From a virus, in IMG/VR virus record IMGVR_UViG_3300044490_000374, positions 1 to 45,456 of that record: 45,456 bases of DNA. One strand, 5' to 3'. The notes beneath the pieces were generated by a model that was not told the DNA's origin, did not search any database, and saw nothing but the letters and a program-made list of their open reading frames with translations. Positions 16,352 to 45,456 of this stretch are shown piece by piece. Every line of letters begins with the position of its first letter. Positions within the stretch are counted from its first letter, which is position 1. Made by a program: the position numbers and the translations under genes.

Positions 16352-17332
16352 TTATCCCTGCTTGGCGGGGACAATGGTCTTAAATCGGTTGATGGTTTGG
16401 GATAGGTCGAGGGCCGCTGTCTCCCCTTGAGGCGGCACCCCTTCAGGCTGATAGCCGGGGTCCATTGCCAGGGAGTAAAAATCAGTCAGTCGTCCGCAGA
16501 CCTGGCCTTTGGCGGCCAAGGTCTCCAGGGCGGCGGTGACGGCATCTTTGAGTTGATCGGGATCGATGGCGAGATTCATCTCAGCCGGGACCAGGGCGGT
16601 GGCTTCCAGTTCAGCGATTCTGGCCTCGAGGCCGTCGATGTGCATAAATAATTGCTCCAAATGCCACCAAGAGGGGTCTTCTCCTTCTCCGGGGAGAGGC
16701 ATCTCCAGATCAAGGAGCCGCTGCTCCAGAGGGGACGGGGCGTCTTCCTCCTGCTTTGCCAAAGCCTGCAAGAGGGCCAGCTCCTGCTCACTCACCACCT
16801 CATGCTCCCGGGCCTCCTGGAAAGCCTTGGAGATATTAGCGTGCGGATTGGCCGGAACCACGACTGCACTCACTTCATAAAGAGAAGATTTCAGGAACCG
16901 CCAGCCGGTTTGCCGGCCGTCCTGCTTGGGATCGGTAATGGGCTCCCGCTCCAAGGGCATGAACCCCACGGAGACCGATTTGAGGTAGCCGGATTTGTAA
17001 AGCCGATACACCGTATCCGGCGTCGGGTAAATGGCGGGCCAGCCGATCCCATATTCTTCCGGCGAGGCGAACTGTACCCGGATTTTGAACTGCTTCCCCT
17101 CCACCCAGGCTTTAAGAATCTTGCCGGGGTTGGGGGCGCTGTAATTGTGTCCCCAGGCAAACGGCCCCGGGCCGGAGCGGAAGAAGTCTTTCGTGTCCCA
17201 TCCGTCCGGCTCGATAATGTCACCGTAGCGGTCAACATGAGAGGTGGAGGCCACGAACTCCAGAATACGCTTGGCATCGTCAACCTGACGAACCTCGAAC
17301 TCCAGGGCCTTTTTGACTAATTCTGTCGTCAT
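16352..17332 (-). CDS. Prohead protease, HK97/U35 family
   Basis: This 326-residue protein is the capsid maturation serine protease. The catalytic His is in FAWGHNYS (His62) and the Ser in LKSVSVGFMP (Ser121), with VDRYGDIIEPDGWD as the conserved opening. The catalytic domain covers about residues 10-190. The remaining 130 residues are Glu/Leu-rich and helical, and may act as a scaffold that is removed by self-cleavage. It lies upstream of the capsid gene in transcription order and downstream of the portal. A second, unrelated phage protease domain (Mu I-like) is found at 20840-21424. Confidence 0.92.
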   Translation of the reverse strand: MTTELVKKALEFEVRQVDDAKRILEFVASTSHVDRYGDIIEPDGWDTKDFFRSGPGPFAWGHNYSAPNPGKILKAWVEGKQFKIRVQFASPEEYGIGWPAIYPTPDTVYRLYKSGYLKSVSVGFMPLEREPITDPKQDGRQTGWRFLKSSLYEVSAVVVPANPHANISKAFQEAREHEVVSEQELALLQALAKQEEDAPSPLEQRLLDLEMPLPGEGEDPSWWHLEQLFMHIDGLEARIAELEATALVPAEMNLAIDPDQLKDAVTAALETLAAKGQVCGRLTDFYSLAMDPGYQPEGVPPQGETAALDLSQTINRFKTIVPAKQG

Positions 17333-17584: not shown

Positions 17585-19657
17585 TCAGTTTTTCTCCAGA
17601 TATGGCCTGGCGCAACAACGGCAGTTAATGATTTCATCGGCCGGGCCTTTGGGGTCGGCAGGGTAAAGGCAGCCGTTAATGAAGAGTTGGCCCAAGACCA
17701 CTACCGCCCCCATGAGCAACCGATGCCGGGGCCGGACCCTTTCGTCACCCGCGGTCACCCATTGGATTTTTTCTACCTCCAGAGACTTCATGCCTTGATG
17801 CCGGGCCATGCCCATACATTGGCTGGTTTCCGTGCGAGCGATGGTCCAAGAGCGGGTGTCGGTGAAGTCGTTGAATTTGTCCCGGATGCGCTGGGCCATG
17901 GTCTGCCAGGATTCTGCCTTCTCCATGGCGTCCTGGATAATTTCCTTCACGTCGGCCCGGGTCTTTTCGTTGACTTTGACTAGGTTGACCAGCTTACTTT
18001 GTAGGGCAGCCAGGGTGCCGGAGTCCTGAACGCTAAATTCCCCGGCCAACTCTCCCATCTCTTCGAAGAGGGCCTTTCCTGCTTCGTTGGCCACCTCGAC
18101 ATAGAGAGGCCACATGAGCTTTTGGAGCTTTTCGGTCTGCTCAATGAGGTCAAAAAGGAGGTCATCGAGGTTTTCCGGGGCCCGGGTTAATCCCTTATCC
18201 GCCAGCTTTTCCTCTAAAATGGATAGTTGGAGTTTGCGTTGTTCATAGAAAAACCGCTTGACCTTTTTCTGAACCTTCTTTTCCAGGACATCATGGAGCT
18301 TGATATAATTTTCCCAATATCTCTCCAGATCCATGGCCTTTTGCTCTGGAGCAGGGAGGGCGGCGGGGGCGATGGTTTCGATGATTACGGCTTTGACTGG
18401 AGTCGGTTCAGGGACCGATTTCTGATCTGTGGATTGGAGATTAAAAGGGAGCCAGCTTTGATCCCACCCCGGAAATTCTTCGAAACCCAAGTCGAGTTTT
18501 TCATTGATTTGGACGAAAGGAACCCCCATGCCCCATAGGGATTTGCCTTGCTCAATCTTTTCGCCCAGGTCTTCCTGTAGGGCTGCGATGTTGCGGCGGT
18601 CGAATTCAGCCCAAACGTTACCGCCCATTAATTTAGAAAAGAGCTGCTGCCAGAGGGCGAACTCAATTAAGGCCATTTTGGGCAACAAACAATCTTCCCA
18701 AAACAGCTTCCGGTTAGCCCGGGCCTTGGCGTTGCTGTCGAATTTTTCCTGAACGCCCCCTAGAGCATGAAGAGGGACCTTGAAGGCCGCTAAGATTTCT
18801 TCCCGGTTAAAGCGTCGGCCTTCCAGGAAGTCCATATCTTTTTGTGAAAGGCCAGCGGTCTTGTAGATGGCCCCGCCTTCCAGGATCATGATCCTGTGAC
18901 CTTTAGAGGCGCCCTGGTGACGGCTTTCAATTTGACCCCGGACCCGATCATAATCCGGATCGTCCATTGGGTCTTTGGTTTCGATAACCCCACCGGGCAC
19001 GGCTGAATTCTTAAAAAAGGCGCTGTTGTATTGCCCGGCCCACCAGTCTTGCTCTACTGAGGCCGCGGCCGCTTCCAGGGGAGACAGACCCCGGTAATCG
19101 TTATAGGGATTGAAATAACGAGCGTGGAGGACTTCGTAGTCCTGAAGCGTAATCGTCTTGGAACCGTTGCGGTAAATCCAGGAGGATATAAGGCCAGATT
19201 CCGGATCGGTTTTATGTTCGAACCGGCGGGGGTCAAAACACCAGATTTCCCGGGGAAGTTGGGCGATGTTGTCCCGGTCGAGAATCAAGATAAATTCGCC
19301 AGCCAAGCCCAGATAAACCAGCATCGCCTCGATGAGGGCCTGTCCGCTCATCATCGGATTAGGCATCTCCAGTAGTTTTGCCAGGGGGCCGGATTCGATT
19401 AAGCGTTTATCCTTTCGTGTCCCGGTGAAAAGCTGAAGGTCCACTCCAGAAATATTTTTGGCGATAGCGTCAATGCAAGCGTAGACCCAGACATGCTGCT
19501 TGAAGGGTTGCGTGATGCGGTCGGTGCGGAGTCCGTCGAGGGAAAAGGTGCCGGCGAAGAAAAGCCGCTGAACATCAAGAAAATTGGGGGTGCTCCGGCG
19601 GAGACCCCCGGTCATTCCTATAACCCGATTCAATCCGCGACCAAGAAGATTGAGCAC
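17585..19657 (-). CDS. Portal protein fused to a Mu F-like minor head domain
   Basis: This 690-residue protein joins two head proteins that are usually separate. Residues 1-420 are an HK97-type portal (VWVYACIDAIAKNISG, YNPYNDYRGLSPLEAA, FNREEILAAFKVPLHALG). A helical linker of about 100 residues follows. The C-terminal 130 residues are a Mu F-like domain (ARTETSQCMGMARHQGMK, WVTAGDERVRPRH, PADEIINCRCCARPYL). The portal forms the DNA entry ring, and F-like proteins help head assembly and DNA entry. The start is a GTG at 19657; the upstream ATG is in another frame. This is the first gene after a terminator and probable late promoter. Confidence 0.9.
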   Translation of the reverse strand: MLNLLGRGLNRVIGMTGGLRRSTPNFLDVQRLFFAGTFSLDGLRTDRITQPFKQHVWVYACIDAIAKNISGVDLQLFTGTRKDKRLIESGPLAKLLEMPNPMMSGQALIEAMLVYLGLAGEFILILDRDNIAQLPREIWCFDPRRFEHKTDPESGLISSWIYRNGSKTITLQDYEVLHARYFNPYNDYRGLSPLEAAAASVEQDWWAGQYNSAFFKNSAVPGGVIETKDPMDDPDYDRVRGQIESRHQGASKGHRIMILEGGAIYKTAGLSQKDMDFLEGRRFNREEILAAFKVPLHALGGVQEKFDSNAKARANRKLFWEDCLLPKMALIEFALWQQLFSKLMGGNVWAEFDRRNIAALQEDLGEKIEQGKSLWGMGVPFVQINEKLDLGFEEFPGWDQSWLPFNLQSTDQKSVPEPTPVKAVIIETIAPAALPAPEQKAMDLERYWENYIKLHDVLEKKVQKKVKRFFYEQRKLQLSILEEKLADKGLTRAPENLDDLLFDLIEQTEKLQKLMWPLYVEVANEAGKALFEEMGELAGEFSVQDSGTLAALQSKLVNLVKVNEKTRADVKEIIQDAMEKAESWQTMAQRIRDKFNDFTDTRSWTIARTETSQCMGMARHQGMKSLEVEKIQWVTAGDERVRPRHRLLMGAVVVLGQLFINGCLYPADPKGPADEIINCRCCARPYLEKN

Positions 19658-35202: not shown

Positions 35203-35510
35203 ACTGTTGCCTCCTGTTTTTTCTTGAGAGCCTGTGCGAGCTCCCTCTTCATGGGCCCCGGTATAGAGGCAAAATCATAGATTATGCCGTCTTTGATGCA
35301 ACGGGCCCTAATACAGCAGCCCTCCCCGGCCCCTATGAGGTGGGGAAGGACGGTAGCCACGCGGCAGGTTGCCTTGTCCCCTTCAAACGATAGTTCTGGA
35401 CACCGGTCATATTTGCCCAAACCTTTTATCCATGACCGGATGCCAGGGCAGGTTTCGCTTAAGCAGCAATACCCGCAGCGGCAGCAGGGATTGGGAAATT
35501 CGGCACTCAT
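35199..35510 (-). CDS. Cysteine-cluster protein, probable metal or Fe-S binding
   Basis: This 103-residue protein starts MSAEFPNPCCRCGYCCLSET and holds ten or more cysteines: CCRCGYCC, then CPGI, RCPEL, TCRV and GEGCCIRARC. The spacing resembles short bacterial cysteine-cluster proteins thought to bind zinc or an Fe-S cluster. The ATG at 35510 overlaps the ATPase stop (ATGA), and its own stop overlaps the Ycf35-like start. The role is unknown. It takes the place that ferredoxin-like genes hold near Ycf35 genes in some bacteria, but this comparison is from memory and unverified. Confidence 0.8.
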   Translation of the reverse strand: MSAEFPNPCCRCGYCCLSETCPGIRSWIKGLGKYDRCPELSFEGDKATCRVATVLPHLIGAGEGCCIRARCIKDGIIYDFASIPGPMKRELAQALKKKQEATV

Positions 35511-36946
35511 AGCTGCACCCTCCTTGCCCCCCTGGCCTCTTCGGTCACCGTCCGGCTGGCCGGGATGGTCCGATACCTCGCCCACTCCCGCAAGGCATCC
35601 ATCTGGGCTTTCTGGGACCGGGATATGGGGATCACGAAATTGGCCGCGGCGTCCAGGTTTCCGCCGTTATAGGCGGCTTCGATGGCCACCTGCCGGATCT
35701 CTGCGCCGGAGTAGCCGGAAAGACAGGGGACCGTGATCTTGCCGTCGCTTTCTGCCATCATAATGGTGGAGGTTTTGCCCATAAACCGCTTCAGGTAAAT
35801 GTCCAGGATGTCCCATTCCTCTTTAGGTCTCGGGTTATCCACAAAAAAGATTGCATCCCAGCGCCCCATCCGGGTGTATTCCGGGGGCAACTTCGAATAG
35901 TCGTTGCATGTAGCAATTACAAAGACCTCTGAGGTATGATCGTTTAGCCAGGTCAAGAAGGTGCCGCCCACCCGCTGCGTCGTGCCGCCGTCCGTGGAGG
36001 ACCCGCCGACACCGGCCAGCCCTTTCTCGATCTCGTCCAGAAAAAGGATGCAGGGCGCCATGGCGTCCACCACCTTCAGGGCCTCCCGCATTTTGGCTTC
36101 ACTCTCGCCCACCAGGGAGCCAAAGACTTTCCCCAGATTCAGGGAGAGACAAGGCCAGCCCACCTGATTGCCCAGGGCCTTGGCAAAGTGGCTCTTGCCG
36201 GTCCCGGGAACCCCCAGAAGCAGGATACCCCGGAAGGGCAGCCCAGGCCGGCGGTGCTCGAATCGGTTAAGCGTCCAATCCTTAAGATTCTCCAGGCCGC
36301 CCAAGGTCTCAAAGGTTTCGGTGAACTGACTGAACTCCAGAGCCGCAGACTTCTCCACCATCTGCGCCTTCAAGGTGGTGATGGTCTTGGGGTCGAAGCA
36401 CTTGGTCCGCACCAGGGCCAGGGCCAGGGCGTTCTCTGCCTCCTCCCAGGTCAGCCCCTGGGCTGCGTCCAGAACCGTCTCCGAATCGTCCGGCTCGATG
36501 CCGGTGCTTTCCACCAGGCCCGCCAGGATGGTATAAATCTCTTCCCGAGTGGGCAGGGGAAAATCCAGGACCACTATCTCCCGCTCCAGCTCCGGGGGAA
36601 GGGAAGCGTCTGGGGCCAGGATTACCAGGGTAATGCCCTTGGCTTTGTAAATCGGCAGGCTATTTTGAAGTGCCTGAATGACAACCGGCTCCTTAATATG
36701 AAAATGATAGTTGCGGAGAAACCAGACCGCTTTTTCCTTCCCCCGGGCTGCCATGTTGGGGAGGTCGTAAGGGTCTGCCTCCTGCCAATCGGCCCCATTG
36801 CCCATCTCCCGGAAGCCCCGCACTAGGTCCCACTGGTAGGCGGAGCGGCCATTGATCTGGGGGAGTGTGGAGCTGATGAACCGCTCCTGCTCATGGGTCC
36901 GAATCAAAAGTGCCGGGTATCCGGCCTTGACGTAATCGGCGATCAT
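35507..36946 (-). CDS. Ycf46-type AAA ATPase
   Basis: This 479-residue protein has two parts. Residues 1-200 resemble the degenerate N-terminal AAA domain of Ycf46 (YPALLIRTHEQERFI, VILAPDASLPPELEREIVV, LDFPLPTREEIYTIL). Residues 215-450 are a standard AAA module: Walker A GVPGTGKSH, Walker B CILFLDEIEK, the sensor phrase VFVIATCNDYSKLP and the arginine finger segment TRMGRWDAIFFVD. Ycf46 is widespread in cyanobacteria and plastids, and its substrate is unclear; AAA proteins of this class remodel or unfold proteins. The ATG has the shared GGAGGCAAGACG leader. It heads the coupled unit with the cysteine-cluster, Ycf35 and DUF2997 genes. Confidence 0.9.
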   Translation of the reverse strand: MIADYVKAGYPALLIRTHEQERFISSTLPQINGRSAYQWDLVRGFREMGNGADWQEADPYDLPNMAARGKEKAVWFLRNYHFHIKEPVVIQALQNSLPIYKAKGITLVILAPDASLPPELEREIVVLDFPLPTREEIYTILAGLVESTGIEPDDSETVLDAAQGLTWEEAENALALALVRTKCFDPKTITTLKAQMVEKSAALEFSQFTETFETLGGLENLKDWTLNRFEHRRPGLPFRGILLLGVPGTGKSHFAKALGNQVGWPCLSLNLGKVFGSLVGESEAKMREALKVVDAMAPCILFLDEIEKGLAGVGGSSTDGGTTQRVGGTFLTWLNDHTSEVFVIATCNDYSKLPPEYTRMGRWDAIFFVDNPRPKEEWDILDIYLKRFMGKTSTIMMAESDGKITVPCLSGYSGAEIRQVAIEAAYNGGNLDAAANFVIPISRSQKAQMDALREWARYRTIPASRTVTEEARGARRVQL

Positions 36947-38835: not shown

Positions 38836-39237
38836 ATGAAAGTCCGTGTTTCCTTTTTATTACTGGCCCTATTTCTTCTGTCCATCGCTTCCCCCGCCCC
38901 CGCCATTCCGCCGGAATATGTCGGCACCTGGACTGGAACGGCGAGTCTGGCCACCCAAAATTATGGTTACCTGACCAAAACAGTCACCATAACGGTTACT
39001 TCAAACTCTCAGCAGGTATTCAAAGGGGCTTATAACGTCCAGAATGGCGAACTGACCGGAAATTTGTCCGGGTGTCTTATCGGTAGCAAGGTCTATTTGA
39101 CCGGAAATTATTTTGTGGGAGAGGGAACCGTCTCTTACGATTCCGTGAAGAAAAAATATCAAATTAAGGGGTGCTGGCAATACGTTGGAAGCAGCCCCCC
39201 TTACGCTTATACGGCCTACTTTCATGTATTTAAGTAA
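38836..39237 (+). CDS. Small secreted protein, the only convincing plus-strand gene
   Basis: This 133-residue protein has a clear signal peptide (VRVSFLLLALFLLSIASPAPA, about 23 residues with cleavage after PAPA) and a mature part rich in Thr, Gly and aromatic residues with an alternating strand pattern (YVGTWTGTASL, TVTITVTSNSQ, KVYLTGNYFVG, YTAYFHVFK), so an exported beta-barrel-like fold is likely. Two cysteines (in SGCLIG and KGCWQY) may form a disulfide. AAGGAGT lies eight bases before the ATG. It is transcribed opposite to all neighbours and carries its own hairpin after the stop, features of a phage cargo (moron) gene expressed in the lysogen. Function unknown. Confidence 0.8.
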   Translation: MKVRVSFLLLALFLLSIASPAPAIPPEYVGTWTGTASLATQNYGYLTKTVTITVTSNSQQVFKGAYNVQNGELTGNLSGCLIGSKVYLTGNYFVGEGTVSYDSVKKKYQIKGCWQYVGSSPPYAYTAYFHVFK

Positions 39238-39423: not shown

Positions 39424-40443
39424 TTAAGTTCCCTGTCCAGCAGCCTCCCCCTCTGGCTCATCAAAGAAAGGTTCGGCCACTACATGCACCGCGTAATCGA
39501 ATTCTTTGTAAATCAGGCCTTCACTGGACGGCTGATAACAAAGCATTTCCGACATCCAGGTATCATGCGATACCTTGCGTTTGTGCTTAATGGCGTTGTC
39601 GATTTTAAAGAAGCCTGAGGCGTTCCGGGCCTTTCCCTGGCAGTCTTCCCATAGCGCGCACTCTTCGCAGTTCCGGTCGATGCACTTTTCCATCACGTCA
39701 AAGACGCACCACTTGAAGATGCGGAAGCCCGACTCGTGGGCTTCTTCGATGACCCGATTCATCAGCCCGTAAGCCTTGTGCATGGTGGAGTAGATGTGTG
39801 TGCTGGCCTCGATACCCCTGGCAGTCAAGGGGGTGAGTAGGGCGGCCTCATATATGCTGTCCTCGAATTCGTCTATTTCGTCAAGACGTAACTTTTGGGG
39901 ATGGGGACCACGGACGGATCGGGAAGATGCGGTGAGTATCTGGATTTCGGATTTATTGGTTAATTTGGTTAGGGTCCGCATGGCTTCGCCCACGACCAGA
40001 TGTTGAAACGGGCCGGTGATAAAGTTTTTCATGTGTCCGTACATGCGGAGCGATTGCTCTCCTGACCCCCCCAAGATCTTGGTTTCGCAGCTATCCTTAA
40101 AAACCGACTCTAGCCAGGTTATCAGGGCGCCCGCAAAGGTTTTGCCGCCTGCTCGATTGGCCCAACAGATGCAGTCCAGGTCGTCTTCAAAAAAGGCCGC
40201 GGTTATATAGTCGGCCAAACAATTATGGTCATCGCATACCGAATTGCGGGGTATCTTCATGCCCCAGGAGATCTCACAAAACCGCAGCAATTCTTCGGGG
40301 CTTTTGAAGCCCCGTCGCCGCTTGGCCTCCACCCATTCCCGCCATTGTTGGACCGAATTAGCCGATTTGGGGGCGTACATCTTTGCAACCAGTATGCCAA
40401 AGCGCCTTGAAGGGCAAGGATGATGGCGAAAACAAACTGTCAT
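39424..40443 (-). CDS. Terminase large subunit, ATPase part (nuclease part encoded separately)
   Basis: This protein of up to 339 residues (an ATG at 40380 gives 318) is the packaging ATPase. Walker A is ANRAGGKT near residue 96-102, Walker B is LRLDEIDE near 185-192 with the catalytic Glu, and the coupling segment TASSRSVRGPHP precedes it. A cysteine set (CIDRNCEECALWEDCQ near residue 255) is present, as in several Mu-like large terminases. It ends after SSEGLIYKEFDYAVHVV, exactly where the RNase H-like nuclease domain should begin. The matching nuclease is a separate gene at 41241-41729, upstream in transcription. No good ribosome site distinguishes the two starts. Confidence 0.88.
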   Translation of the reverse strand: MTVCFRHHPCPSRRFGILVAKMYAPKSANSVQQWREWVEAKRRRGFKSPEELLRFCEISWGMKIPRNSVCDDHNCLADYITAAFFEDDLDCICWANRAGGKTFAGALITWLESVFKDSCETKILGGSGEQSLRMYGHMKNFITGPFQHLVVGEAMRTLTKLTNKSEIQILTASSRSVRGPHPQKLRLDEIDEFEDSIYEAALLTPLTARGIEASTHIYSTMHKAYGLMNRVIEEAHESGFRIFKWCVFDVMEKCIDRNCEECALWEDCQGKARNASGFFKIDNAIKHKRKVSHDTWMSEMLCYQPSSEGLIYKEFDYAVHVVAEPFFDEPEGEAAGQGT

Positions 40444-40638
40444 TTACGCAACTTAAAAAGGGCTTTTTAGGGCAAAGCCAGGGTGTGGGTGATTGATTAG
40501 GTATAGTGGGGAACGTGTCTATACGGGCATTTACGAACGTCGTTTGGCGTAGGATTGGTAAGGGTTTGCGGGTTTTGGGTTGTTCGGCGTAAATTATTGC
40601 CCCAAAAGTGGGGAGCTGGCCCTTTCTACAAACTGTTA

Positions 40639-40659
40639 CGCCCCCAGATTGTGGGGGCG
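40639..40659 (-). other. GC hairpin in the gap before the terminase ATPase gene
   Basis: CGCCCCC pairs with GGGGGCG around a seven-base loop. No T run follows in either direction. The 273-base gap (40444-40716) otherwise holds an AT-rich segment next to the upstream gene and no convincing protein. It might contain a promoter or a packaging start site, but I see no direct proof. Confidence 0.45.
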
Positions 40660-40716
40660 GTGGGGAAGCTACCTTTTTGTAGGGTTTGGTATACATTATT
40701 GTAAATATTAGATAAG

Positions 40717-41244
40717 TTACCGTAATCCCAATAAATTTACTCCTCGCCCCAGTGCTTTCATTACCAGCAGCTCAAATTCCAGGGTAAATTCATCATCATC
40801 AAAGGGGCTGGTCTCGCCGATTAGGATTTGCTTAGGCACCTCTTTCAACAGACCCACCCGCTGCAAAAATTCAGTATATTGCTTGGTCAGCTCGGCCGCC
40901 GTGCGCATTGCCCCTATCTTGCCGTTTTCGGAGCGGAAGGTTTGGTAGTCTCTCAAAGCTGCGCGGATGCTGGTTTCATAAAACCTGATTCGAGCTTTCA
41001 CGACCGCGGTCTGGTCAACATCGATGGGGATTTCCCGGTCAAGCCTCCTGCCGTCCTGTAGGTCTCGGTCAATCATCCGAGGGTTGATATTATATCGAAC
41101 TGCGAGTTCGTCTATCTTCATGCCGGATTCATAAAGAACCATAACCTCTTTAATCCGCTGCATCCGCTTGGCAGAAATCCCCTTGACCCCCAGGACCTCT
41201 TCTGTTTTGCTTATGGGGGGTGGCGCTATCGTCAAGTGCGTCAT
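40717..41244 (-). CDS. HTH protein, possible small terminase subunit
   Basis: This 175-residue protein has a helix-turn-helix near residue 45 (SGMKIDELAVRYNINPRMID) preceded by KRMQRIKEVMVLYE, and a long helical middle (ARIRFYETSIRAALRDYQ, MRTAAELTKQYTEFLQRVG). The C-terminus is acidic. Small terminases combine an N-terminal DNA-binding domain with helices for oligomerisation and a tail that contacts the large subunit. The position between the nuclease and ATPase genes of the split large subunit fits. The ATG at 41244 overlaps the nuclease stop (ATGA). A transcription regulator remains possible. Confidence 0.6.
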   Translation of the reverse strand: MTHLTIAPPPISKTEEVLGVKGISAKRMQRIKEVMVLYESGMKIDELAVRYNINPRMIDRDLQDGRRLDREIPIDVDQTAVVKARIRFYETSIRAALRDYQTFRSENGKIGAMRTAAELTKQYTEFLQRVGLLKEVPKQILIGETSPFDDDEFTLEFELLVMKALGRGVNLLGLR

Positions 41245-41729
41245 TTTGCCCACCCCGCGAAAAAGTACCGGAGCGCATCCAGGGCGTGGTGGTCCCCGGA
41301 GCCGGGCTCATGTTGGAGGTACAGCCTGATCTCCCGAATAAGATTCCTGCAGCGGTGGCCGATGATTAAACAGGGAACCCCATCGTACCGACGCTCCAGC
41401 CACAGTTTAACTAGTTCCTGGCCCACCTTCACCGGGAGGCGCGGGCCTTTGATTTCGACGCCCAACTCTTCGCCCAAAAGCACCAGGCGCTCCGGGTTGG
41501 CCGGATCACCATAACCGCCCCTGAATGGCGGGTAACCCCGTTCTTCATGTTGCTTCTTGATCGCCCTGGCGTTCTCTGGGGTTGTGCGCATGGTCTCGTA
41601 ATACTCATCGATGACCACTACCCGCTCGCCCTTTTCGACTGGCATGACCCAGAGGCCGGCAAAAGGGTTAGTATAGCCGGGGTCAACGGAGAGATAGAGG
41701 CCTTGCGCCGGTTCGTAATGATATTTCAT
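41241..41729 (-). CDS. Terminase large subunit, nuclease part (stand-alone RNase H-like domain)
   Basis: This 162-residue protein is a terminase nuclease domain by itself. It starts MKYHYEPAQGLYLSVDPGYT (Asp16, as in the SVDPGYTNP strand of RNase H-like domains), followed by FAGLWV and VVVIDEYYET, then GGYGDPANPERL (Asp75) and the end DHHALDALRYFFAGW (Asp146, Asp151). These acidic residues match the two-metal site that cuts concatemers. The ATPase part that normally precedes it is downstream in another gene. Both genes lie in one operon, with a possible small terminase between them. The ATG overlaps the preceding stop (ATGA). Confidence 0.88.
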   Translation of the reverse strand: MKYHYEPAQGLYLSVDPGYTNPFAGLWVMPVEKGERVVVIDEYYETMRTTPENARAIKKQHEERGYPPFRGGYGDPANPERLVLLGEELGVEIKGPRLPVKVGQELVKLWLERRYDGVPCLIIGHRCRNLIREIRLYLQHEPGSGDHHALDALRYFFAGWAK

Positions 41730-42103
41730 TTCTTCAGGTCCCCGGGCTTAATGCCGAAGTCGGCCAGAAGCTGACCGGCCGCGTCTTTTCTAAGAAGCTG
41801 CTCTGCCGTGTGGTTAAGGGTTCCGTCCGGCAAGATGATCCCGTTGCCCCGGAGCACCAGGTAACCCTCGGTGGCTTGGATGGGGGAGACCTGGGCCAGA
41901 GATTCCCATCGTTCAAAACTCAACCAGACGCCCCTCCATGCTTCCTCCAGGGTCTCCGGGGCTTCTTGGAGGGATAAAGCCTTTATGGTCCGGGGCACCT
42001 GGGGCCATGCGGCGGCTAATCGTTTTAGGATTGGGTCTTGAGCCAGAATAGCAGCGCCCTCGAAGTTCTCAGCCGCCCTGAAGATCAAAAGCGAATCAGC
42101 CAT
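41726..42103 (-). CDS. Hypothetical protein
   Basis: This 125-residue protein has FRAAENFEGAAILAQDPI and a tract rich in Ala and Glu, then VLRGNGIILPDGTLNHTAEQLLR near residue 85. It has no metal site or membrane segment. The ATG lies within the end of the ParB-like gene, and the stop overlaps the nuclease start, so it is translated between them. A packaging-related role is suggested only by neighbours. I do not recognise it. Confidence 0.6.
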   Translation of the reverse strand: MADSLLIFRAAENFEGAAILAQDPILKRLAAAWPQVPRTIKALSLQEAPETLEEAWRGVWLSFERWESLAQVSPIQATEGYLVLRGNGIILPDGTLNHTAEQLLRKDAAGQLLADFGIKPGDLKK

Positions 42104-42860
42104 TCTCTGCCCCCTCGACTTTCATCAACAGCTCCAATCCTGCCCGAGCCAAATCCATCAGCTTGAGAAATGCGGCGGCGCTATTCTTGATCTGGCACTG
42201 TTTCTTGATCTTCACCACCAAGTCAAAAAAGGCCTCGTAGGTTTTTAGGTTTGCCAAGTAAACAGTATCAGCAGCAAAGGCGATGGCCGTTTCTTTCAAC
42301 AAGGCGTCCAGGTCTTGCAGCTCTTCCGGTAGGAACATGAAATTGACGATCTTGTAGCGGGTCCGGTAATCTTGCAGGCCCGAAAACTTGATTGATTCCA
42401 TGGCATTTAGGGTTTCAGAGTCAAGACCAGCATAAACCTTCTCCGCCATGCTCTGGATACTCTCCCATAATTCTTTTAAGAGGGACAGGTCGTCCTGACC
42501 GCTGATGGCGTTGTGCGAAAGCTGAATGCTTATTTGCTCGTCCTTATTTTTTTCTCCAGCCACAACCAGCACAAGGACTCTCTCAATACCTGCCTGCACT
42601 GCGGCCTTGATCCGATGGTTGCCTGACAAAACAATAAGCGGGCCTTCTTTTGTTTCACGGTAACAGAGAGGCATCGATGACAGCCCACCATCGCGTTTAA
42701 TGTTCGCAACAAGCGCGCCGTATTGTTCCGCTTTCATATACCGAGCGTTTTTTTCTAATAATTTTATACTATCTGGGGCTACGATTTCTATTTTACAAGG
42801 AAATTCCCCGGCGAGCTTTTCGTTCAGCCGATTTATTATTTCTGGTATTTCTTTATCCAT
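42096..42860 (-). CDS. ParB-domain protein, phage type
   Basis: This 254-residue protein has a ParB/sulfiredoxin-like N-terminal domain: APDSIKLLEKNARYMKAEQY, LVANIKRDGGLSSMPLCY and LIVLSGNHRIKAAVQAGI (the GNHR motif of the nucleotide-binding pocket). The C-terminal half is helical and differs from partition ParB. Such proteins are frequent next to phage terminase and DNA-modification genes. It overlaps the methyltransferase-like gene by 25 bases. The ATG at 42860 with GAGGTAA upstream is preferred to one six codons earlier. It is distinct from the ParB at 30374-31405. Confidence 0.8.
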   Translation of the reverse strand: MDKEIPEIINRLNEKLAGEFPCKIEIVAPDSIKLLEKNARYMKAEQYGALVANIKRDGGLSSMPLCYRETKEGPLIVLSGNHRIKAAVQAGIERVLVLVVAGEKNKDEQISIQLSHNAISGQDDLSLLKELWESIQSMAEKVYAGLDSETLNAMESIKFSGLQDYRTRYKIVNFMFLPEELQDLDALLKETAIAFAADTVYLANLKTYEAFFDLVVKIKKQCQIKNSAAAFLKLMDLARAGLELLMKVEGAENG

Positions 42861-44152
42861 GTTGATATTACCTCGCATAATTTGATAGTTCCTAATTGGC
42901 CCTTATATTTTAATCGTGGCGGGGATTGTTTCCTTTCAATCAACTCAAACAACGGTCTGTATTTCATCGAAACCGGCTTATCGGTAAATACAGAAGTCAA
43001 ACAGTAGTTAAATTCTTGCAGGTGTTTTTCTTCAAGATATCTCTTCATTTCGTCCGATTTAATTACCAACAGAAGCAGCTTCGCAAGACGGTTGTATTTG
43101 GTAGAGGGAACCACGAAATCGCACAAAAGATTTATTCTGCGCCAATCTTTTGCCCGATCAAAAATCCTATTGAATCCGACGAAGCCAATTATTTTACTAT
43201 CTACTAAAATAGCCAGCGCAGTTTCGGCTATAGAGGGGATGCCCACCGTTTTCCCTAAATATAAATCCCTATAATAATTCATCGTTACTGAATCGATGGG
43301 CGCTATGCTTATTTGGGCCGATTGATCGATTTCGTCCTCGTCTTTTAATAAATCAAAATATTTTTTGTTCGAACCTATCCGCCACCTTGTTATGGCCCTG
43401 CGAAATTCTAAATTCGAATAAATAAATATCGAGTGAAATTGAATTTTTTGAGCGATCATCACTGGATCACCCATATCTTGTCTCGGCGAGTCGGTAAACA
43501 ATACATATTCTTGTTGGGCCATATTGTGGATAGCCTCTTCTCTCCTTTCATTTGTAAGCATTTCGTATTTGGGAGACTCCCATCGAAAGGCTTTATGCAG
43601 ACGATTATATAATTTTTCATACCCGCCTTGATATGTTGGCAGAAACCCTAACAATATTGCATCTTTTAAAGGAGGGTCCTTGAACAAATCAAATACGTCT
43701 ATCGTGGTATATTCATGTATCCGAATCTTTTCCTTCCAGCCCAGGAGGAGGCTTTTGTTTTGATTAAAATATTCAATGAAATTATCTTTATAATGTTTCC
43801 ACATCCTTTTTCGGAATTCGGTATCTTGTTGATAATGCTTAATCAAAGAGCTGAACATCAAGATAATGGTGGCCTTATCGTCTATGGATTTCATGTGGTC
43901 TTTTAAGAAAAATAATTCCTCATCTATTGGTTCAAGCATCATGTCTCTTCCCAATAAACAATTTCCTAAGACGGATGAATAGAGGGCTATGTCGTTCGCC
44001 TGCAAATAATAGTCTTTCGAATAAGTCGAGATGATTTGCTCCGTGGTAAAATTTCCACAACAGCCATCGATGATCTTTCTTCCATTAAAAATATGGGCGT
44101 TGTTTCCAAAAAATTTTCTGACTGCGTGTGGGATAGCCCCGACGAAGCTCAT
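42836..44152 (-). CDS. Putative adenine methyltransferase with GNAT/Mom-like tail, antirestriction type
   Basis: This protein of about 438 residues starts MSFVGAIPHAVRKFFG. IIDGCCGNFTTEQII near residue 26 and LQANDIALYSSVLGNCLLG near residue 50 look like D12-type adenine methyltransferase motifs, and this family is named putative antirestriction adenine methyltransferase in annotations I remember. The C-terminal 130 residues (IIGFVGFNRIFDRAKDW, NLLCDFVVPSTKYNRLAKLL) read like a GNAT fold, as in Mom-type adenine modification. It would act on phage DNA to avoid restriction. The gene is much richer in A+T than its surroundings, which suggests recent transfer. The reaction is an inference. Confidence 0.65.
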   Translation of the reverse strand: MSFVGAIPHAVRKFFGNNAHIFNGRKIIDGCCGNFTTEQIISTYSKDYYLQANDIALYSSVLGNCLLGRDMMLEPIDEELFFLKDHMKSIDDKATIILMFSSLIKHYQQDTEFRKRMWKHYKDNFIEYFNQNKSLLLGWKEKIRIHEYTTIDVFDLFKDPPLKDAILLGFLPTYQGGYEKLYNRLHKAFRWESPKYEMLTNERREEAIHNMAQQEYVLFTDSPRQDMGDPVMIAQKIQFHSIFIYSNLEFRRAITRWRIGSNKKYFDLLKDEDEIDQSAQISIAPIDSVTMNYYRDLYLGKTVGIPSIAETALAILVDSKIIGFVGFNRIFDRAKDWRRINLLCDFVVPSTKYNRLAKLLLLVIKSDEMKRYLEEKHLQEFNYCLTSVFTDKPVSMKYRPLFELIERKQSPPRLKYKGQLGTIKLCEVISTWIKKYQK

Positions 44153-44215
44153 AAAAAATATCTCGCTATTAAATTTGAAGGCAATCAGGGGGGTCTTTTG
44201 CACCCCCCTAATCGC

Positions 44216-44283
44216 TGGAGCGGATCGGGGGAGTCGAACCCCCGGCATCAGGTGGTCCCCAATGCCCCCGCCTGGGTCTCCGC
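44216..44283 (-). tRNA. tRNA-like element (degenerate or partial)
   Basis: On the minus strand a perfect T arm (GGGGG TTCGACT CCCCC) is followed by GATCCGC, T and CCA. The 5' end GCGGA pairs with TCCGC for five of seven acceptor positions. The 68-base total is short and no normal D arm or seven-base anticodon loop forms; instead a CAGGCGG/CCACCTG stem is possible. It may be a decayed tRNA, a tRNA-like RNA or a former integration site. Confidence 0.35.
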
Positions 44284-44682: not shown

Positions 44683-45063
44683 TCAAACTCCTCCTCTCAT
44701 TTGCCGCAGCCAGGCGTCATGCCGCCGCAGTTTGGGGTTAAATTCATCTATGACGGCTCCGGTTAGCTTCCGGAGCCAGGCGGCCACCATTTGGCGGTGA
44801 CAGAACTCGCCGGCCGATTCCCAGCAAAGCATGATGAAATTGTCGCCGCCAAGGTCTTGGAGCACCTTCTGGGGGTCGAGCTTATCCAGGACCTCTAAAC
44901 GGTATGCCTGGACGAACTGCGAGGGGTTGACAATTTTGATTAATTTTCGAGAGGGGGCCAGGGGCATATACCTCCGGCCGACAAACCCCCTGGGCACACC
45001 GCGGGAGATGGCCACGGCGCCGGGCAGGTGGGAGGCGGTCTTGAAATTGGAGGTCAGGATCAA
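44683..45063 (-). CDS. DUF488-like protein (second of two paralogues)
   Basis: This 126-residue protein has a core LMLCWESAGEFCHRQMVAAW-like stretch (MLCWESAGEFCHRQMVAAWL) that matches the paralogue at 31836-32198, including the LDPQKVLQDLGGD segment before it. The N-terminus (ILTSNFKTASHLPGAVAISRG) is the DUF488-like opening. It follows the terminase-like frame at the right edge by 14 bases. Retention of two diverged copies in one phage suggests two targets or two times of expression. Function unknown. Confidence 0.8.
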   Translation of the reverse strand: MILTSNFKTASHLPGAVAISRGVPRGFVGRRYMPLAPSRKLIKIVNPSQFVQAYRLEVLDKLDPQKVLQDLGGDNFIMLCWESAGEFCHRQMVAAWLRKLTGAVIDEFNPKLRRHDAWLRQMRGGV

Positions 45064-45077
45064 TGTCGCATGTCTCC

Positions 45078-45456
45078 TTAAAGCCAGCGAACCCGCACCG
45101 TCCGCTCTAGACTCAATCCCACCACCAGGAACTCCAGGGCTCGGAGCGCATAATTGTCAACTTCGACCGGCTTATCCTTCATGGGCTTTCCTTTTTTTTT
45201 CTCCGGCGTATGCAGCTTGGGAAATTCGGAAAGCACCATCGGACAATCTGGAGTAGCGGACAAAGCCCCCGTCTGCCGTAGATGATACCGGAGCAGCCGC
45301 TGTTTGATCGTATTGATGGCCAATTCCAACTCTTTTTCCGCGGCCACGGCCCAAAGTCGCGCCTTGCGCATCCTGGCGATGAATTCCGGCTGGGAAGGGT
45401 CGCAAAAAAACTTGCGAATTTGCAATTCTTCTTTCCATTCCTTGCCGATTCGAATG
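45078..45456 (-). CDS. C-terminal part of a second terminase-like nuclease domain (runs off the right edge)
   Basis: The frame is open to the window edge, so the start is not seen; an internal TTG at 45425 need not be the real start. The visible 126 residues include FFCDPSQPEFIARMRKARLW, INTIKQRLLRYHL, PDCPMVLSEFPKLHTPE and DKPVEVDNYALRALEFLV. The order (DPS..., a basic helix, CP...L.EF...PE, DNxALxAL) is that of the end of large terminase nuclease domains. The last motif has Arg (ALRAL) where Asp is usual, so activity is uncertain. The ATPase domain, if present, lies outside the window. Confidence 0.55.
   Translation of the reverse strand, partial: IRIGKEWKEELQIRKFFCDPSQPEFIARMRKARLWAVAAEKELELAINTIKQRLLRYHLRQTGALSATPDCPMVLSEFPKLHTPEKKKGKPMKDKPVEVDNYALRALEFLVVGLSLERTVRVRWL

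Follow-up and report, generated by a model that had tools for sequence, protein, structure and literature searches.

The IMG/VR virus record IMGVR_UViG_3300044490_000374, a metagenomic fragment of 45456 bases (the window, which here means the whole stretch of DNA analysed), encodes the motor ATPase and the nuclease of a large terminase (TerL) as two free-standing genes, with a gene for a helix-turn-helix (HTH) protein between them. The reading favoured here, to which a probability of roughly 80% is given, is that these genes specify a heteromeric large terminase, found in a clade whose members are tailed phages and prophages with links to deltaproteobacterial hosts, with ATPase and nuclease acting as non-covalent subunits, probably of different TerL ancestry. 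The window was assigned to a tailed phage because portal, head protease, major head protein and tail genes are all present.

The terminase ATPase and nuclease are separate genes

In keeping with the initial annotation of this DNA, the ATPase (39424..40443, 339 amino acids) and the nuclease, termed Nuc (41241..41729, 162 amino acids), are separate open reading frames (ORFs) on the minus strand, and the order of transcription is nuclease, then HTH, then ATPase. The ATPase displays the Walker A motif (NRAGGKT), the Walker B motif with its catalytic glutamate (LDEID) and the coupling motif III (YSTMH) of an additional strand, conserved glutamate (ASCE) ATPase, together with a cluster of cysteines in the lid. 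Nuc, for which an RNase H fold is predicted from its sequence, carries all three catalytic aspartates of a terminase nuclease domain. It matched Pfam Terminase_6C above the gathering score and was also matched by three PHROG terminase families (5653, 10250 and 6672). The window ATPase gave weak matches to the terminase families PHROG 9 and PHROG 7579, while Pfam Terminase_6N matched the ATPases of two relatives (E=8.7e-6 and 4.2e-4), both under the curated cut-off. Another hallmark of a TerL, the presence of both activities in one polypeptide, was not observed: within the clade the ORFs are always separate, and the system would therefore work like a TerL without being a standard one.

The nuclease had been described as beginning with SVDPGYTNPF. 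It is indeed a complete separate gene, but 15 residues precede the first catalytic aspartate (MKYHYEPAQGLYLSV-D), which places the break inside the interdomain linker. The ATPase, in turn, had been taken to end at the nuclease-domain boundary, and this describes most relatives, which stop exactly at HVV/HVI; the window ORF, however, extends 17 residues beyond YAVHVV, and a few relatives have a similar acidic tail. Whether the ATPase really starts at 40443 is uncertain: the next ATG is at 40380 (M22), and a GTG at 40332 is a further candidate. Profile searches with the ATPase and with Nuc matched no solved structure, and when fused relatives were added to the alignment only the nuclease part gave structure matches, which were weak.

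Separation and gene order are conserved and under selection

Relatives were drawn from IMG/VR and GTDB genomes. All 38 loci having both genes showed the order Nuc-HTH-ATPase on one strand, and in 17 of these a second nuclease homologue, Nuc2, was located upstream. Subtraction of the window and of double-counted loci leaves ~34 other distinct contigs, so that the check proposed in the initial annotation, a search for the same order in related genomes, returned it repeatedly and without contradiction; no fused or differently ordered ATPase and nuclease were found among these contigs. The close relatives of the ATPase are all free-standing proteins, typically of ~300 amino acids. Relatives of Nuc with at least 38% identity are likewise all separate ORFs (134-244 amino acids), and homologues at or below 33% identity are almost all C-terminal domains (approximately residues 260-420) of fused TerLs of ~400-535 amino acids.

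The catalytic residues of Nuc are kept in every sequence that covers them (39/39 for Asp1, 40/40 for Asp2 and 39/39 for Asp3), and among 63 distinct ATPase sequences the motifs of the motor show no variation wherever they are covered. The ratio of nonsynonymous to synonymous substitution (dN/dS) was ~0.07-0.15 for pairs of Nuc, Nuc2 and ATPase sequences. Because separation and order are both conserved and under selection, the ATPase and the nuclease most likely work as separate subunits, as had been suggested.

The window being a metagenomic fragment, the arrangement could be an assembly artefact, or the trace of a decayed prophage in which these genes are out of use. This explanation is very improbable, since the order is common to ~34 independent contigs, the motifs are invariant and the dN/dS values are low. 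A complete TerL accompanying decayed copies of the two genes was not encountered either, no fused TerL being present within the window or in related records of up to 54 kb. Artefact and decay were rejected, being refuted for practical purposes by the recurrence of the order together with selection.

The two halves resemble different TerL lineages

The closest fused relatives of the ATPase are the TerLs of phages Mvi-JY20 and Mx1, while those of Nuc are TerLs such as Wollypog and HRTV-28, termed the nuclease group. The ATPase profile scored 90 bits on the Mvi-JY20 TerL, 37 on that of Mx1 and 21-32 on T4-like TerLs, and no more than 16 bits on 41 nuclease-group TerLs. The Nuc profile scored 40-72 bits on nuclease-group TerLs and ~0 on Mvi-JY20 and Mx1. 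Profile-profile comparison with hhalign gave, for the ATPase, E=9e-20 with Mvi-JY20, 4e-11 with Mx1 and 0.1 to 2e-5 with nuclease-group N termini, and, for Nuc, ~1e-12 to 1e-23 with nuclease-group C termini, 0.011 with Mx1 and 0.05 with Mvi-JY20. The GenBank match lists of the two proteins had no record in common. In addition, the lid cysteine cluster is common to the split ATPases, Mvi-JY20 and Mx1, and the same pattern was not found in nuclease-group TerLs. Phylogenetic analysis grouped the split ATPases with Mx1 and Mvi-JY20 (support 100/99) and placed Nuc among the nuclease-group TerLs with weak support. A scan of IMG/VR for relatives of the Mvi-JY20 TerL returned no match.

The arrangement had been interpreted as a circular permutation of one gene. 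That claim is not supported: the closest fused relatives of the halves belong to different TerL lineages, which suggests that parts with separate origins were brought together rather than that one gene was cut and rearranged. A mixed origin is likely, though not proven, given that the ancestry panel is small and was gathered in part using Nuc itself, that long branches meet in the ATPase tree, and that the Mx1 nuclease matches a PHROG family that also matches Nuc. An alternative is that a single ancestral TerL was cut at the linker and its pieces reordered with no mixing of lineages, unequal rates of change having made their affinities differ. In its favour, the break sits exactly in the interdomain linker, and the fused TerL of Mx1 has both a related ATPase and a nuclease matching the broad PHROG 5653. 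However, the opposite bit-score affinities of Nuc and ATPase, the agreement of hhalign with them and the disjoint GenBank match lists make such a history unlikely.

Several points weigh against a heteromeric terminase of mixed ancestry. The nuclease tree is weakly resolved, the long branches that meet in the ATPase tree are those of Mx1 and Mvi-JY20, PHROG 5653, a broad family, also matches the nuclease of Mx1, and unequal rates could partly explain the incongruent ancestry. The window and its relatives are fragments and the search for a fused TerL was limited to contigs, so that one lying outside them is not strictly excluded. The AlphaFold single-chain models are of low confidence (predicted local distance difference test scores of 47 for Nuc2 and 41 for the ATPase), and the identification of the HTH protein as a small terminase (TerS) rests on position and architecture.

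A second nuclease homologue has an incomplete catalytic site

Three features went beyond the initial annotation: Nuc2, a sigma54-type promoter, and small integrase-bearing elements that have the HTH and ATPase genes without a nuclease. Nuc2 (45078..45455, minus strand) is a second terminase-nuclease homologue, the 5' part of its gene lying beyond the window edge; full-length relatives have 169-196 amino acids. These relatives aligned with Nuc in hhalign (95.6%, E=1.3e-8) and with the nuclease domain of D6E TerL (E=0.005), PHROGs 5653 and 6672 matched 10/10 Nuc2 members, and the Nuc model picked up Nuc2 in related genomes with E=1e-10 to 3e-5. The catalytic site is incomplete: Asp1 is replaced by Lys or Gln in 20/20 covering sequences and Asp3 is lost in 22/23 (the exception, L050, keeps Asp3), with Asp2 retained. 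The low dN/dS nevertheless indicates that Nuc2 is in use. Nuc and Nuc2 were not united in the nuclease tree, and Nuc2 therefore did not necessarily arise by simple duplication. By analogy with phi29, whose vestigial nuclease domain retains DNA binding (PMC7672431), Nuc2 probably serves as a subunit for DNA binding, docking or regulation.

Operon structure, promoter and neighbouring genes

All genes of the window described in this section are on the minus strand unless stated otherwise. The HTH gene (40717..41244) is listed as an ORF starting at GTG 41253, but its likely start is ATG 41244, which overlaps the Nuc stop by ATGA. The Nuc start overlaps in the same way the stop of the gene upstream, g125 (41726..42103), which encodes a protein with no assigned function and adjoins HTH-ATPase in several nuclease-less elements. 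The g125, Nuc and HTH genes form an operon with overlapped starts and stops. The HTH protein agrees with a TerS in its HTH and in its position; matches to TerS PHROGs were weak and came from few members, and its identity as the small terminase is plausible but not proven.

Introns and inteins are known to target terL (PMC12363816, PMC3322345, PMC7156551), and an HNH-like ORF lies between Nuc and HTH in some relatives (L012 5676-6377, the same ORF in L011). It could be, therefore, that an intron or intein has split TerL and that the pieces are rejoined by trans-splicing into one protein. Cis-splicing in order is impossible because the nuclease is upstream of the ATPase. The protein ends bear no intein-sized extensions, the genes abut in locus L016 (as also in L017 and L018), and an Rfam scan of five sources found no RNA family and hence no intron match. 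Taken together with the reversed order, these observations make trans-splicing very improbable, and an intron or intein split was rejected.

A sigma54 (RpoN)-type promoter, TGGCATACTGGTTGCA, is positioned ahead of the ATPase (40384..40399, minus strand) and agrees with 12/12 scored consensus positions. Read from 40399 to 40384, TGGCATACTGGTTGCA is the sole match of at least 11 positions within the window. Among 20 relatives examined, a promoter near the ATPase start matched 12/12 positions in six and 11/12 in two. If this promoter is used, the ATPase start would lie past ATG 40380, with GTG 40332 as a candidate, and expression of the ATPase apart from Nuc-HTH would be possible.

The wider order in many loci is Nuc2, DUF488, methylase-GNAT, ParB, g125, Nuc, HTH, ATPase and AAA. 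In the window this conserved neighbourhood comprises a DUF488-like protein (44683..45063), a DAM-like methylase-GNAT fusion (42836..44248), a ParB-like protein (42096..42878) and, downstream, an AAA ATPase (35507..36946) that is ~80% identical in relatives and serves as a neighbourhood marker. The TerL of a Leptospira phage is likewise preceded by a ParB-methylase pair. Adjoining the end of the ATPase gene in the window is a small plus-strand ORF (38836-39237) with a signal-peptide-like N terminus.

Satellite-like elements carry the motor without the nuclease

Elements encoding an integrase, an AlpA-like HTH protein, a DUF3987 primase, a helicase, the HTH protein and the ATPase were found in L023 (1642-10599) and L026/L162 (L162 7590-17552), both in contigs of deltaproteobacterial metagenome-assembled genomes. 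No virion genes were present in these elements, and in L162 host genes flank the element on both sides. They thus have the features of phage-inducible chromosomal islands (PICIs), namely an integrase, a replication module, a packaging gene, no virion genes and integration in host DNA. L006 carries the same end of the module as L023 and L026, and L165 has primase, g125, HTH and ATPase; no integrase was seen within the stretches of L006 and L165 examined, which cover the replication-packaging part only. No match to Nuc was found in the genomes of L023 and L026, which are incomplete assemblies. The ATPases and HTH proteins of the satellite-like elements are under purifying selection.

In the ATPase tree the nuclease-less ATPases require at least four label changes, with L006, L023 and L026 forming one clade. 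A decayed Nuc persists between g125 and HTH in G010:C121, and L174, whose ATPase contains a stop, and L175 resemble remnants. Phage-type and nuclease-less loci coexist in G004 and G010, and in G003 a nuclease-less locus is accompanied by a Nuc2 fragment. No attachment-site (att) direct repeats were found for the satellite-like elements. Sequences resembling a tRNA 3' end were noted by eye beside the L162 integrase (~17756-17803 of the L162/L163 joined contig) and upstream of the L165 module (~17230-17270); ARAGORN called no tRNA at either. A cluster adjoining the satellite ATPase in L023 (10606-16445) encodes an SNF2-Mrr helicase-nuclease (ZorD/DpdE-like) and two BrxD-like ATPases, and is possibly defence cargo.

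These elements bear on the role of Nuc itself. RNase H folds have many roles, and the occurrence of satellite-like elements with an ATPase but without a nuclease would suit a scheme in which the ATPase packages DNA without Nuc, Nuc and Nuc2 being nucleases of the RNase H fold that act in recombination or defence. Note, however, that the closest matches of Nuc are nuclease domains of TerLs, that no other TerL nuclease was found, and that every phage-type locus covering the region has Nuc in one operon with HTH and ATPase, which leaves this scheme improbable.

With the nuclease retained as a terminase subunit, the unlinking of motor and cutter would be what enables satellites to encode a TerS-like protein and a motor of their own. 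The satellites would be transferred by a helper phage, and it is hypothesised that they borrow the helper nuclease; alternatively, they may interfere with helper packaging. A broader proposal, offered tentatively and at somewhat less than even odds, is that of a modular machine assembled from two TerL lineages, comprising a free motor, an active nuclease and a second, catalytically incomplete nuclease that positions its active counterpart or holds it back, with satellites bringing a TerS-like protein and motor and borrowing the nuclease of the helper.

Proposed mechanism and comparison with known terminases

Complex formation between ATPase and Nuc, their division of labour, oligomerisation on the portal, and packaging and cutting of DNA are predictions from the gene set. 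In the proposed mechanism, the HTH protein, acting as TerS, would recognise phage DNA and Nuc would perform the initiating cut. A free ATPase ring would then pump DNA at the portal (17585..19657, minus strand), the expected docking partner of the motor, and Nuc would cut once the head is full, perhaps positioned by Nuc2. The ATPase gene lies after the g125-Nuc-HTH operon, often with its own sigma54-type promoter. A non-covalent motor-nuclease mechanism is plausible because the isolated ATPase domain of D6E is active, its kcat being ~60x that of full-length TerL (PMC5727402).

The joining of packaging ATPase and nuclease has been deemed universal in tailed phages, phi29-like phages being an exception in which catalysis was lost (PMC7824862, PMC7672431). 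No report of separate motor and nuclease terminase subunits was found in the open-access literature, most subscription journals lying outside this coverage, and a review of jumbo phages describes split enzymes without a split TerL among them. The arrangement described here is real and represents a new form of phage terminase. Its separate activities make it possible to ask directly whether the coupling of cutting to translocation requires a covalent link, where the nuclease resides while DNA is being packaged and what holds it in check. The findings also suggest that TerL halves can be swapped independently, which bears on TerL as a phylogenetic marker, and they hint at a form of satellite hijacking that is new.

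The fused TerLs of D6E (5OE8), T4 (gp17), Wollypog and HRTV-28 have the same two domains and motifs, and the break observed here falls at the position of the D6E linker. Those enzymes are one chain, whereas here there are two genes with the nuclease upstream, and the nearest relatives of the two differ. Interrupted terL genes, as in the Jug phages (PMC12363816), IBB_35 (PMC3322345) and Mic1 (PMC7156551), also present TerL in pieces, but these are in order and are rejoined via an intron or intein, whereas the present locus has the reverse order and no intron or intein match, and its pieces seemingly remain apart. A nuclease-group TerL in L098 (4496-6198) occupies two overlapping ORFs, of which one encodes an ATPase with an intein-like insert (387 amino acids) and the other a nuclease (190 amino acids), and may be either a real split or a frameshift. 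PHROGs 5653, 6672 and 10250 (145-228 positions) and 7579 (239 positions), annotated 'terminase large subunit', are domain-sized and match Nuc, Nuc2 and the ATPase, which suggests that other separate or truncated pieces are already in reference collections.

The gp16 protein of phi29 keeps a non-catalytic terminase nuclease fold for DNA binding (PMC7672431), as is proposed for Nuc2, but here Nuc2 is a separate protein alongside an active-looking Nuc. Nor is the ATPase of the phi29 type, in which the motor has its own vestigial nuclease and there is no active one, since it lacks a C-terminal nuclease domain and the Nuc aspartates are kept. Finally, PICI satellites (PMC9026076) resemble L023 and L026 in having an integrase, an AlpA-like HTH protein and a primase, with a TerS-like gene placed at the opposite end, and in lacking virion genes; L023 and L026 additionally carry the motor half of TerL, without the nuclease.
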